Assembly: GCA_030744875.1 (NCBI GenBank)
Contig: JASLPR010000058.1
Span: 1 to 45,322, forward strand
DNA: 45,322 nucleotides
DNA from: Chloroflexota bacterium
Lineage (GTDB): Bacteria; Chloroflexota; UBA11872; VXNJ01
Direction: 5' to 3'
In this document: positions 3,625 through 39,934 of the stretch, one piece after another
Layout of the letters: each line of letters begins with the position of its first letter
Position numbering within the stretch: the first letter of the stretch is position 1
Translations under genes and position numbers: made by a program
The notes under the pieces: generated by a model
The model's database searches: none
What the model saw: only the letters and a program-made list of their open reading frames with translations
What the model was told of the DNA's origin: nothing

Positions 3625-3897
3625 CTAGCCGCCGGCGGCCGCCGGGACGATCGAGACCTCGGCGTCGGCCGGGACCTCGGCGTCCAGGCCGCCGAGGAAA
3701 CGGATGTCCTCGCCGCCGACGTAGACGCCGACGAAGGCCGACGGCTCACCCTTTTCGTCGAGCACCCGGTTCTTGATCCCCGGGTGCTTCGCGTCGATCT
3801 CGTCGAGAATTGCGCGGATCGTCCCTCCGGTAACCCGGAGCTTGCGCTCGCCGTCGACCAGGTTTCGCAATTGCGATGGAATTCTTACGGTTGCCAA
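3625..3897 (-). CDS. MoaD/ThiS-like ubiquitin-fold sulfur carrier protein
   Basis: 90 aa, beta-grasp-like pattern, ends in ...VSIVPAAAGG* (C-terminal GG as needed for thiocarboxylation); 25 nt downstream of the thrC-like stop. Confidence 0.88.
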   Translation of the reverse strand: MATVRIPSQLRNLVDGERKLRVTGGTIRAILDEIDAKHPGIKNRVLDEKGEPSAFVGVYVGGEDIRFLGGLDAEVPADAEVSIVPAAAGG

Positions 3898-3922
3898 TTT
3901 GGTGTCCTTTTACGGGAGCCGG

Positions 3923-5182
3923 TCACCGGGCCGCCTGGGCCAGGACCGCTTCTTGTTTATCCTCCAGCGCGTCCTCGAACGAGCCGATTGTCGGTTGGAT
4001 CGTCATGGTCACGGAGACGTGGCCGTCCACCGCCTCCTGAGTCTTGAGACCGTTGCCGGTGACGTACGCGACGGTGACTTCATCCTCGCCGATCGCGCCG
4101 TTCGCGGCCAGCTTTCTCAGGGTGGCGATGGTGACGCCGCCGGCGGCTTCGGTGAAGATGCCTTCCGTGGCGGCCAGTAGTTTGATGCCTTCCACCGTCT
4201 CGGCGTCGGTCACCGACTCGATCACGCCGCCGGTCCGCCGGGCCACTTCCAGCGAGTAGTTACCGTCGGCCGGATTGCCGATGGCCAGTGACTTCGCCAC
4301 CGTCTCCGGCTGGCGCACTGGTTCGAAGGCGTCCTCGCCGGCCGCGAAGGCGGCCGCCACCGGCCCGCAGCCCGCGGCCTGCGCCCCGGAGACCCGGACG
4401 CTCTGGCCGTCGATCAGGCCGACCGTCACCATCTCTTCGAAGCCCTGCGCGATCTTCGTGTAAAGCGCCCCCGAGGCGATCGGCACCACGACGTGATCGG
4501 GCGCTCGCCAGCCGAGCTGTTCGACGGTTTCAAAGGCCAGTGTTTTGGAACCCTCCGCGTAGTAGGGACGGACGTTGATGTTGCAGAACGCCCATTCTTC
4601 TTCATCGGCGATTTCCGAGCACAGCCGATTCAGTTGGTCGTAGGTGCCGTTAACGGCGATCAAATTCGCGCCGTAGACCGCCGCGTTGGTGATCTTGCCG
4701 GCCTCGACATCGGACGGCAGGAAGACGTAGGTCTCCATTTCGGCCTTCACTCCGGCGGCCGCCACGGCGCTGGCCAGGTTGCCGGTGGAGGCGCAGGCGA
4801 AGACGGTGTATCCGAGTTCGCGAGCCTTGGTGACCGCGATTGCCACCGGCCGGTCCTTGAACGAGTAGGTTGGGTTGACCGAGTCGTTCTTCACGTAGAG
4901 GTTCTTCAGGCCGATGGCGGCGCCCAGTCGCGGGGCGTACTGCAGCGGCGTGAAACCCACTCGCACATCGGAATCCCAGCCGGATTCCACCGGCAGCAGG
5001 TCGACATATCGCCACAGGCTTATCGGGCCGTTCTCGATTTTCTCGCGGCTGATGACCGACCTGATGTGGTCGTAGTCCAGCGCGACCTCTAGGGGGCCGA
5101 AGCAGAGTTCACATACGTGAATCCCGTTGGTCGCGTAGACCTCGCCGCATTCTTTACATTTGAGTCCCAAGACTTTGCTCAT
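3923..5182 (-). CDS. thrC: Threonine synthase-like PLP enzyme with N-terminal zinc ribbon
   Basis: Start taken at MSKVLGLKCKECGEVYATNGIHVCELC (zinc ribbon); PLP lysine in NPTYSFKDRPVA; CASTGNLASAVAA. The ORF-track extension upstream to 5341 lies in the riboswitch leader and is unlikely to be coding. Confidence 0.9.
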   Translation of the reverse strand: MSKVLGLKCKECGEVYATNGIHVCELCFGPLEVALDYDHIRSVISREKIENGPISLWRYVDLLPVESGWDSDVRVGFTPLQYAPRLGAAIGLKNLYVKNDSVNPTYSFKDRPVAIAVTKARELGYTVFACASTGNLASAVAAAGVKAEMETYVFLPSDVEAGKITNAAVYGANLIAVNGTYDQLNRLCSEIADEEEWAFCNINVRPYYAEGSKTLAFETVEQLGWRAPDHVVVPIASGALYTKIAQGFEEMVTVGLIDGQSVRVSGAQAAGCGPVAAAFAAGEDAFEPVRQPETVAKSLAIGNPADGNYSLEVARRTGGVIESVTDAETVEGIKLLAATEGIFTEAAGGVTIATLRKLAANGAIGEDEVTVAYVTGNGLKTQEAVDGHVSVTMTIQPTIGSFEDALEDKQEAVLAQAAR

Positions 5183-5345: not shown

Positions 5346-5367
5346 GGAACCCCGTACGAGGGGTTCC
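5346..5367 (-). terminator. Terminator/sequester-like hairpin of SAM riboswitch expression platform
   Basis: Perfect 8-bp stem ggaacccc / ggggttcc with 6-nt loop; weak U-tract on the minus strand (CUUGCAUGUCCC), so intrinsic termination is uncertain. Confidence 0.6.
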
Positions 5368-5397
5368 ACTAAAGACAGCTAATGCCAATTGTGGTCC

Positions 5398-5500
5398 TCT
5401 TATCTTGCAGGCAGGTCACCCACCGGAGTTGGCACCTGGTCCCATCGGGACTGGTTGCCGGGCTTCACAGGGCCGTATCCCTCCACCACTCTGGATAAGA
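5398..5500 (-). promoter_or_regulatory. SAM-I (S-box) riboswitch aptamer
   Basis: Minus strand reads CTTATCCAGAGTGGTGGAGGGATACGGCCCTGTGAAGCCCGGCAACC...GGTGCCAACTCC...AAGATAAG, matching the S-box core and P1 closure. Confidence 0.95.
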
Positions 5501-5535
5501 AAATCGGGTGTGACCACTTCTTCAGTTGTCCGAAA

Positions 5536-38478: not shown

Positions 38479-38501
38479 ATCCCTCTGTGGAAATGAATCC
38501 G

Positions 38502-38592
38502 TCTTCCTACGCCGGCATTACCCGGTTCAGGTTCAGAGGGAATGCGGCGTGTGGGGCCGCTATCTCAGCCGGATCTACTCCAGCTCCCCCGC
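38502..38592 (-). promoter_or_regulatory. TPP (THI-box) riboswitch
   Basis: Minus strand GGGGAGCTGGAG...GGCTGAGATAGCGG...CCCTCTGAACCTGAACCGGGTAATGCCGGCGTAGGAAG. Confidence 0.96.
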
Positions 38593-38662
38593 GGAAATCG
38601 TCGTTCAGCTTTCTTGGTTGTGCGCCGCTACCCTCAGACCGTCCCACCGTGGCGCGCTGCTG

Positions 38663-39346
38663 TCAAGGCATTTCGGTGCGATCGGCGGCCGGGTCGGTCC
38701 CATCGCCGCTCAAGTCACGGAAGAACAGGACCACTCCGTCCACGATGCGCAGCGCGACTTCCGGCTCCGTCGCACGGTTGCTCACCGTGTAGGTCGAGCC
38801 CAGTTCCAGATCGACCGCCGCCAGCGGCCAGCGCACCCCGGCGAGCGTCACGCCGCGAACGTTGGCCGTGATCGGCGCCAGCGAGATTGTCTCGCCGGAT
38901 TCGACCGCGCAGGTGTGATCGCCTGGACCAAAGGCCCGCACCTCGGTGGTGGCGGTCAGGAAGCGCGCGTCCACCGCCGCCAGCCGCGGGTGCGCCAGCA
39001 GCAGGAGGTTGGCCGCTTCATGATCGGCCCGCGGGCCGCCCCGCCCCCCGAGGATCGTCACGGCGGTCGCGCCGCGGTCCAGCGCCGCCAGCAGCGCCAG
39101 TTCGGCGTCGGTGGCATCCTTGTCCTCCGGGCGCCGTACGATTTCGACGCCTCGCGAATCCAGTTCCGCCCGGCGCTCCCCGGCGATCGAATCCAGGTCA
39201 CCGACCAGCAGCCCGGGGGTTATTTCCAGATTCTCGAGATGGTGCGCGCCGCCGTCGGCGGCCACCACCAGGTCGGCCTCGCGCAGAACCCGTTCGATTG
39301 CGGGCGTCGCACGAAAGTCGCCCGCCAGGATCACTACCGCGTTCAT
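38663..39346 (-). CDS. thiN: Thiamine pyrophosphokinase
   Basis: MNAVVILAGDFRATP, VVAADGGAHHLENLEITPGLLVGDLDSI, DKDATDAELAL, TILGGRGGPRADHEAANLLLL. Confidence 0.92.
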   Translation of the reverse strand: MNAVVILAGDFRATPAIERVLREADLVVAADGGAHHLENLEITPGLLVGDLDSIAGERRAELDSRGVEIVRRPEDKDATDAELALLAALDRGATAVTILGGRGGPRADHEAANLLLLAHPRLAAVDARFLTATTEVRAFGPGDHTCAVESGETISLAPITANVRGVTLAGVRWPLAAVDLELGSTYTVSNRATEPEVALRIVDGVVLFFRDLSGDGTDPAADRTEMP

Positions 39347-39389
39347 CCGCGTCTCCACCGCTTGGCCGGTTCCGGCTTCCAGCATAGAG

Positions 39390-39934
39390 CTAGGCGGCCA
39401 ATGTCTCCCGCAGGGATTCGAGCAGCGCCGCCACGACCTCCGCGTCCAGCTTCGGTCCGGCCATGTCATTCAGGATGGTCACCATCGTCTCCTGCGGCAT
39501 CGGCGCCCGGTAGGGCCGCTCGGCCGACAGCGCGTCGTGAATGTCGGCCACCGCCAGGATTCTCTCTTCCAGACTCAAGTCTTCTGCCCGCAGCCCCAGC
39601 GGATAGCCGCTGCCGTCCAGCTTCTTGCGATGTCGCTGGCGCCAACCAGTTCCAGCAGCACGTCGACCGCCGCCGGACACCCGCTGTCCTTCAGGTAGGC
39701 CGAATAGAACACGTCCGAGCATTCCTCGGCGGTGAGGTCGCAGGTCCGGGCGATCCGCATCGCCGTATACGCCGTGCGGATGGCATGGCCGCGCTTGAGT
39801 CCCTGCGTCATGTCCAGCGCCACCGAGAACCCGCGCAGCAGGTTGGACATTGGGATCGGCCCTGACGCCAGCAGCTCCGTCTCGCGGGACGGCCCCTGAT
39901 CCGTGTGTACGGTACCCACTCCGTTCACCCCCAA
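39390..39934 (-). pseudogene. Collapsed HD-GYP-type gene (N-terminal HD-like part and C-terminal GYP part in different frames)
   Basis: Frame 1 MSNLLRGFSVALDMTQGLKRGHAIRTAYTAMRIARTCDLTAEECSDVFYSAYLKDSGC; frame 2 RHRKKLDGSGYPLGLRAEDLSLEERILAVADIHDALSAERPYRAPMP; switch near 39620-39650. Confidence 0.72.

Follow-up and report, generated by a model that had tools for sequence, protein, structure and literature searches.

The locus and its leader RNA

The window analysed here is a stretch of 45,322 nt from a Chloroflexota genome labelled G000 (2.3 Mb, 89% complete). A SAM-I riboswitch, a ThrC-like gene and a sulfur carrier gene follow one another on its minus strand in this order, with an intergenic gap of 25 nt between the two genes. 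The ThrC-like gene (3923-5182; ATG at 5182, stop at 3923-3925) encodes a PLP enzyme of the ThrC family, 419 aa long, for which we propose a role as an O-phosphohomoserine-dependent homocysteine synthase. The carrier gene (3625-3897; TTG at 3897, stop at 3625-3627) encodes a CysO-like ubiquitin-fold sulfur carrier of 90 aa that ends in VPAAAGG. The first-pass annotation of this DNA had described a ThrC-like gene and a GG-ended carrier 25 nt apart, and had mentioned a SAM riboswitch. This description was confirmed in all its coordinates, as the two ORFs lie on the minus strand with profile matches for each, and the leader matched RF00162 with 78.5 bits.

The riboswitch aptamer spans 5397-5501 (minus strand) and forms the leader of the operon. 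Its RF00162 score exceeded the gathering threshold of 44.4 bits (E 6e-17), on the correct strand and upstream of the operon, and it reached 101.8 bits with a model made from the leaders of the window and its relatives. A possible expression-platform hairpin, GGAACCCC-N6-GGGGTTCC, was recognised by eye between the aptamer and the gene (5346-5367, minus strand), with no clear U-run. It was paired in the predicted fold, the stability of which was about that of shuffled sequences (z -0.12). No convincing match to a further SAM riboswitch was found in the examined stretches of G000. Elsewhere in the window, a TPP riboswitch (RF00059, 67.3 bits; 38486-38600, minus strand) lies beside a thiamin pyrophosphokinase gene (38663-39469, minus strand).

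The ThrC-like enzyme

The enzyme scored 281.6 bits against TIGR00260 (threonine synthase), above the cut-off of 167.1, and also matched Pfam PALP. The nearest folds to its AlphaFold2 model (pLDDT 87) were threonine synthases, with TM up to 0.89. Its fold, its PLP-lysine motif and most of its cofactor residues resemble those of the threonine synthases in PDB entries 6nmx, 2zsj and 1v7c, and the TIGR00260 cofactor motifs SFKDR (with K109), STGN and TGxGLK are all retained. The PLP-lysine motif itself, NPTYSFKDR, is encoded at 4850-4876 (minus strand).

Unlike ThrC, the clade to which the enzyme belongs has N203 in place of Ser, R205 in place of Asn, Y208 in place of Arg and, usually, Tyr or Phe in place of the canonical Gly at position 106 of the PLP-lysine motif. 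The window system also differs from ThrC in its N-terminal zinc ribbon, its methionine control and its linked carrier. Three of the substitutions fall in a clade signature, NINxRPYYxEGSK (residues 201-213; 4544-4582, minus strand), which replaces the canonical NSVNPYRxEGQK, and the canonical phosphate-loop motif NSVNPxR is absent from the window enzyme. N203, R205 and Y208 were invariant in 131/131 clade proteins, whereas S, N and R occupied these positions in all 5 canonical ThrC rows aligned. The equivalent loop binds the substrate phosphate in the T. thermophilus ThrC structure. We considered the pocket signature as a marker of carrier use and rejected it. Since the motif is identical in carrier-free members, the changes in the loop and at position 106 mark the clade and not the use of a carrier.

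A zinc-ribbon-like set of N-terminal cysteines, C9, C12, C24 and C27 (5102-5158, minus strand), is conserved in the clade, C9, C12 and C24 being invariant and C27 present in 119/130. The four-cysteine ribbon noted in the first-pass annotation is thus borne out by its conservation across 131 clade proteins. Its suggested role as a docking element for the carrier was not supported: carrier-free paralogues (L069-L071) also have the ribbon, so it is not a carrier-specific docking site.

Cysteate synthase provides a precedent for a ThrC relative that has turned to a sulfur nucleophile. It shares a ThrC origin with the window enzyme, which nevertheless lies far below the cut-off of the cysteate synthase model TIGR03844 (61.4 bits against 324.9), and this identity was rejected.

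The sulfur carrier

The carrier matched Pfam ThiS with 38.4 bits (cut-off 22.5). Its AlphaFold2 model (pLDDT 91) had CysO from M. tuberculosis as the top fold match (3dwg_C, TM 0.94), and its nearest solved relatives by sequence were the CysO proteins from Amycolatopsis and M. tuberculosis. With its ubiquitin-like fold and C-terminal GG it is of the CysO type. It did not reach the curated cut-offs for SAMP1 (45.9 against 60) or moaD_arch (33.4 against 49.5). The C-terminal Gly-Gly codons (3628-3633, minus strand) specify the predicted site of adenylation and thiocarboxylation, and G89 and G90 were invariant in the alignment of carriers. In roughly half of the linked carriers the GG is followed by at least one residue, so that a protease would have to trim them.

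Some carriers departed from this picture or occurred outside it. The linked carrier at locus L149 (5461-5739, plus strand) has VPAVAWG where GG is expected, along with a run of F; an error in the sequence or decay of the tail may explain this. G000 has four further ThiS-family carriers, on contigs C35, C41, C25 and C52 (loci L091, L092, L093 and L090); one of them adjoins an aldehyde ferredoxin oxidoreductase-like gene and one is CysO-like and solitary. In genome G058, a CysO-like carrier is fused to a MoeB-type E1 (L217, 4689-5774, plus strand), between a cysteine synthase and a cluster of transporter, rhodanese and JAMM genes.

Distribution of the clade and linkage to the carrier

The window enzyme fell into a single clade (SH-aLRT 99), set apart from canonical ThrC by a long branch. 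The named loci of the clade were mostly from Chloroflexota, including SAR202 and Dehalococcoidia, and others were from Actinomycetota (Nitriliruptoraceae, Egibacter), Elusimicrobia and Omnitrophota. Single clade MAGs were labelled Planctomycetota (with no adjacent carrier) and Euryarchaeota. Among 131 distinct clade members, 110 had the carrier directly downstream, 18 lacked it and 3 were truncated at contig ends. Because this linkage spans many families and several phyla, the pairing of enzyme and carrier is not due to chance. The linkage looks ancestral, with several later losses.

The carrier-free members deserve attention, as 8 of the 18 still have a SAM riboswitch. The carrier may thus be dispensable or unlinked in them, and free sulfide may also serve. 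Extended to the whole clade, this would make the enzyme an O-phosphohomoserine sulfhydrylase acting on free sulfide, with the carrier as an accessory supply at low sulfide and not an obligate donor. The retention of riboswitch and identical pocket in carrier-free members speaks for such an enzyme, as does a linkage that was apparently lost several times. Nevertheless, we regard it as unlikely, given how prevalent the adjacent carrier is and given its bias towards genomes lacking PF01053 enzymes (the MetB/MetC/MetY/MetZ superfamily). The carrier was adjacent in 39/41 inspected loci of genomes without PF01053, compared to 8/17 in genomes with it (p 9e-5, kinship ignored).

Several loci had unusual contexts. 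In order-level relatives (L015-L032, family f2), the pair is divergent from, and adjoins, a 16S rRNA gene in many genomes. G156 has three clade copies (C3, C26 and C49) with about 48% identity, and the copy inspected was carrier-free and accompanied by lysC and asd. In G291, a carrier-free clade member forms a tight operon with a cysE-like gene and a PF01053 enzyme (L105, C1:1073554-1075907), which could couple homocysteine and cysteine synthesis.

Methionine-specific regulation

In total, 61 loci had a SAM riboswitch immediately ahead of the clade gene; of the 29 loci from close relatives, 26 had one. G058 has a T-box instead, with the specifier GAAA-AUG-A (Met), and its operon runs from the T-box through the ThrC-like and carrier genes to thrB. 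The divergent neighbour, thrS (723 bits), has its own T-box with the specifier GAAA-ACC-A (Thr), which serves as a built-in control for the specifier reading. Specifiers were located from the GAA motif as in glyQS. A second Met T-box (GAAC-AUG) was found at locus L149, where the operon continues to sulfite reductase and APS reductase. No Rfam leader was found at the tested SAR202 and Dehalococcoidia loci, and the methionine control rests on the other loci. Since two unrelated classes of RNA, S-box and T-box, precede it, the clade gene is tied to methionine and not to threonine. The strongest individual clue to the putative substrate comes from G058, where thrB is co-transcribed with the pair behind a Met T-box.

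Pathway enzymes in the source genome and its relatives

No full PF01053 match was found in G000 (best E 1e-5), while the same search gave matches in all 14/14 control genomes. MetX and the DUF39/HcyBio protein (PF01837) had no match in G000 either. The product of any MetA (PF04204) enzyme would serve no known purpose without a PF01053 enzyme. Throughout the family and order of G000, PF01053, MetX and HcyBio were likewise missing, the sole exception being a PF01053 enzyme in G008. The absence of metB, metY, metZ and metX from the genome is what the first-pass reading of a sulfur-carrier-dependent enzyme expects.

The E1-like MoeB/ThiF and JAMM protease that this reading also calls for were both present. 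The MoeB-type E1 of G000, on contig C6, scored 416.9 bits against PRK08762, under the model cut-off of 449, and has a rhodanese adjacent to it; the JAMM protease is on contig C76. In several relatives (G024, G028, G030, G038, G039 and G046), ThiF and JAMM genes are found no more than a few kb away from the pair. At the G030 locus (L054, 1-2750), genes for an E1, a JAMM protease and a LarE-like PP-loop protein run convergently towards those of the carrier and the ThrC-like enzyme. G000 also has homoserine kinase (thrB), homocysteine methyltransferase and serine acetyltransferase.

These gene contents bear on two alternatives that keep methionine or sulfur control for the operon. A gamma-synthase of the kind known from plants, which forms cystathionine from O-phosphohomoserine and cysteine, would use the identical activated substrate, and methionine control would fit it, to judge by inference only. 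Such a route also needs a cystathionine beta-lyase; these lyases normally belong to PF01053, of which G000 has no enzyme. The route leaves the linked sulfur carrier unexplained as well, and we consider it very improbable. A CysM-like cysteine synthase would combine O-phosphoserine with the carrier thiocarboxylate, the SAM control then being part of general sulfur assimilation. CysO with CysM is a known precedent, and the carrier is nearest to CysO in both sequence and fold. The enzyme, however, is of the ThrC family and not CysM, and the serine acetyltransferase of G000 indicates an O-acetylserine route. G058, moreover, has a separate CysK, a CysO-ThiF fusion and a JAMM cluster, while its ThrC-like operon holds thrB. 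Cysteine synthesis by the pair is thus very improbable.

A third alternative is an ordinary threonine synthase in an operon that is incidentally under methionine control, with a carrier that serves another pathway. The TIGR00260 score of the enzyme would fit this function, and one clade member, at L111, lies between lysC and asd and may, by its context, be a plain threonine synthase. The G000 assembly itself has no clear canonical ThrC: its paralogue on contig C47 only narrowly passes TIGR00260 (173 against 167 bits). A dual role of the window enzyme that includes threonine synthesis is therefore possible in G000. Many relatives, though, have a second, canonical ThrC alongside the clade enzyme, clearly so in G001 (269 bits) and G019 (288 bits). 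Control by SAM and by Met T-boxes, next to a thrS gene with a Thr T-box of its own, also argues against an ordinary threonine synthase, as does the invariant change of the phosphate loop. In addition, this alternative leaves no homocysteine route. We therefore find it quite unlikely.

Replacement of known routes across Chloroflexota

We surveyed 400 Chloroflexota genomes of at least 85% completeness, scoring the clade as present at E<1e-80 and PF01053 as missing at E>1e-30. The clade was found in 159 genomes, PF01053 was missing in 84 and HcyBio was present in 26. HcyBio was added to the test because PF01053 alone is confounded by reverse-transsulfuration enzymes. Among genomes lacking both PF01053 and HcyBio, 58/69 had the clade, compared to 101/331 of the others (odds ratio 12, Fisher p 1e-16). 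The clade and HcyBio coexisted in only 1 of the 26 HcyBio genomes (p 3e-5), and the clade gene there was carrier-free. None of these Fisher tests takes the relatedness of the genomes into account, and the p-values are descriptive. A PF01053 enzyme was also present in 101 of the clade genomes.

Eleven genomes lacked PF01053, HcyBio and the clade (G012, G066, G192, G255, G284, G302, G318, G336, G382, G386 and G402). These genomes either belong to auxotrophs, have gaps in their assemblies or use still another route.

The DUF39 (HcyBio) route, in which aspartate semialdehyde is sulfurated directly, is likewise an alternative in genomes without PF01053. It differs from the system described here in that it is absent from G000 and, across the phylum, nearly exclusive with the ThrC-like clade.

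Proposed function of the pair

The first-pass annotation had put forward the pair as a sulfur-carrier-dependent homocysteine synthase, and the genomic tests that were run (missing routes, E1 and JAMM protease, methionine control, replacement of the known routes across the phylum) support it. What was observed directly is the presence and linkage of the genes, their methionine-specific control, the lack of other routes and the altered phosphate loop. On these grounds we consider it likely that the pair is the homocysteine-forming step of this organism, joining O-phosphohomoserine and the carrier thiocarboxylate. As PF01053 and MetX are absent and the enzyme is of the ThrC family, the substrate should be O-phosphohomoserine.

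In the following scheme we infer which substrate and sulfur donor are used, how they react and how the product is released. Homoserine kinase would make O-phosphohomoserine, and a MoeB-type E1, probably fed by the rhodanese, would adenylate and thiocarboxylate the carrier at its terminal GG. From O-phosphohomoserine the ThrC-like enzyme would eliminate phosphate, giving a beta,gamma-unsaturated PLP intermediate as in threonine synthase. Where threonine synthase adds water to the beta carbon, this enzyme would then attach the thiocarboxylate sulfur to the gamma carbon. The carrier adduct would be hydrolysed, perhaps with the help of the JAMM protease, to free homocysteine. Homocysteine methyltransferase would convert homocysteine to methionine, and SAM would turn the operon off through the riboswitch.

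At the level of the clade, it seems reasonably probable that the enzyme is a ThrC-derived homocysteine synthase of fold-type II, acting on O-phosphohomoserine and a dedicated thiocarboxylate. For much of Chloroflexota it would be the sole route, and its range would extend to Actinomycetota, Elusimicrobiota, Omnitrophota and perhaps to MAGs of archaea. Judged from genome sequences, many uncultured bacteria without any of the textbook enzymes for homocysteine probably make methionine through this pair, by an undescribed route.

Comparison with known systems

Price et al. 2018 concluded that at least one further homocysteine pathway is still to be discovered (PMC5764234). The pair is a concrete, testable candidate for this named gap in microbial metabolism. 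If the proposal is true, bacteria have one more pathway to homocysteine, which could close some of the gap described in PMC5764234. Predictions of auxotrophy would change for many uncultured lineages, and a widespread annotation as threonine synthase would be corrected.

Thiocarboxylate-dependent methionine synthesis is known from Wolinella, as cited in PMC6225789, and the pathway is also mentioned in PMC5764234. There, too, a GG-ended carrier gives the sulfur of homocysteine, and an E1 and a metalloprotease, both of which have counterparts in G000, are part of the system. The enzyme of the Wolinella pathway is reportedly MetY, a member of the PF01053 family that acts on O-acetylhomoserine. 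G000, in contrast, is without a MetY-type PF01053 enzyme and MetX, and the window enzyme is of the ThrC family. In the literature searched, which was mainly open-access, we found no description of a ThrC-family enzyme in a thiocarboxylate-dependent homocysteine role.

The system also resembles CysM/CysO/Mec+ of M. tuberculosis in its CysO-like carrier, the adjoining fold-type II PLP enzyme and the presence of E1 and JAMM in the genome. It differs from that system in its ThrC-like partner, in its control by SAM or Met T-boxes and in the thrB gene of the G058 operon. Thiocarboxylate-dependent methionine synthesis as such is therefore known, and what would be new is a ThrC-family enzyme with phosphate-activated homoserine in that role. 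If confirmed, this would be the second enzyme fold to draw methionine sulfur from a ubiquitin-like protein, and it would do so with phosphate-activated homoserine, a substrate otherwise known from plants.
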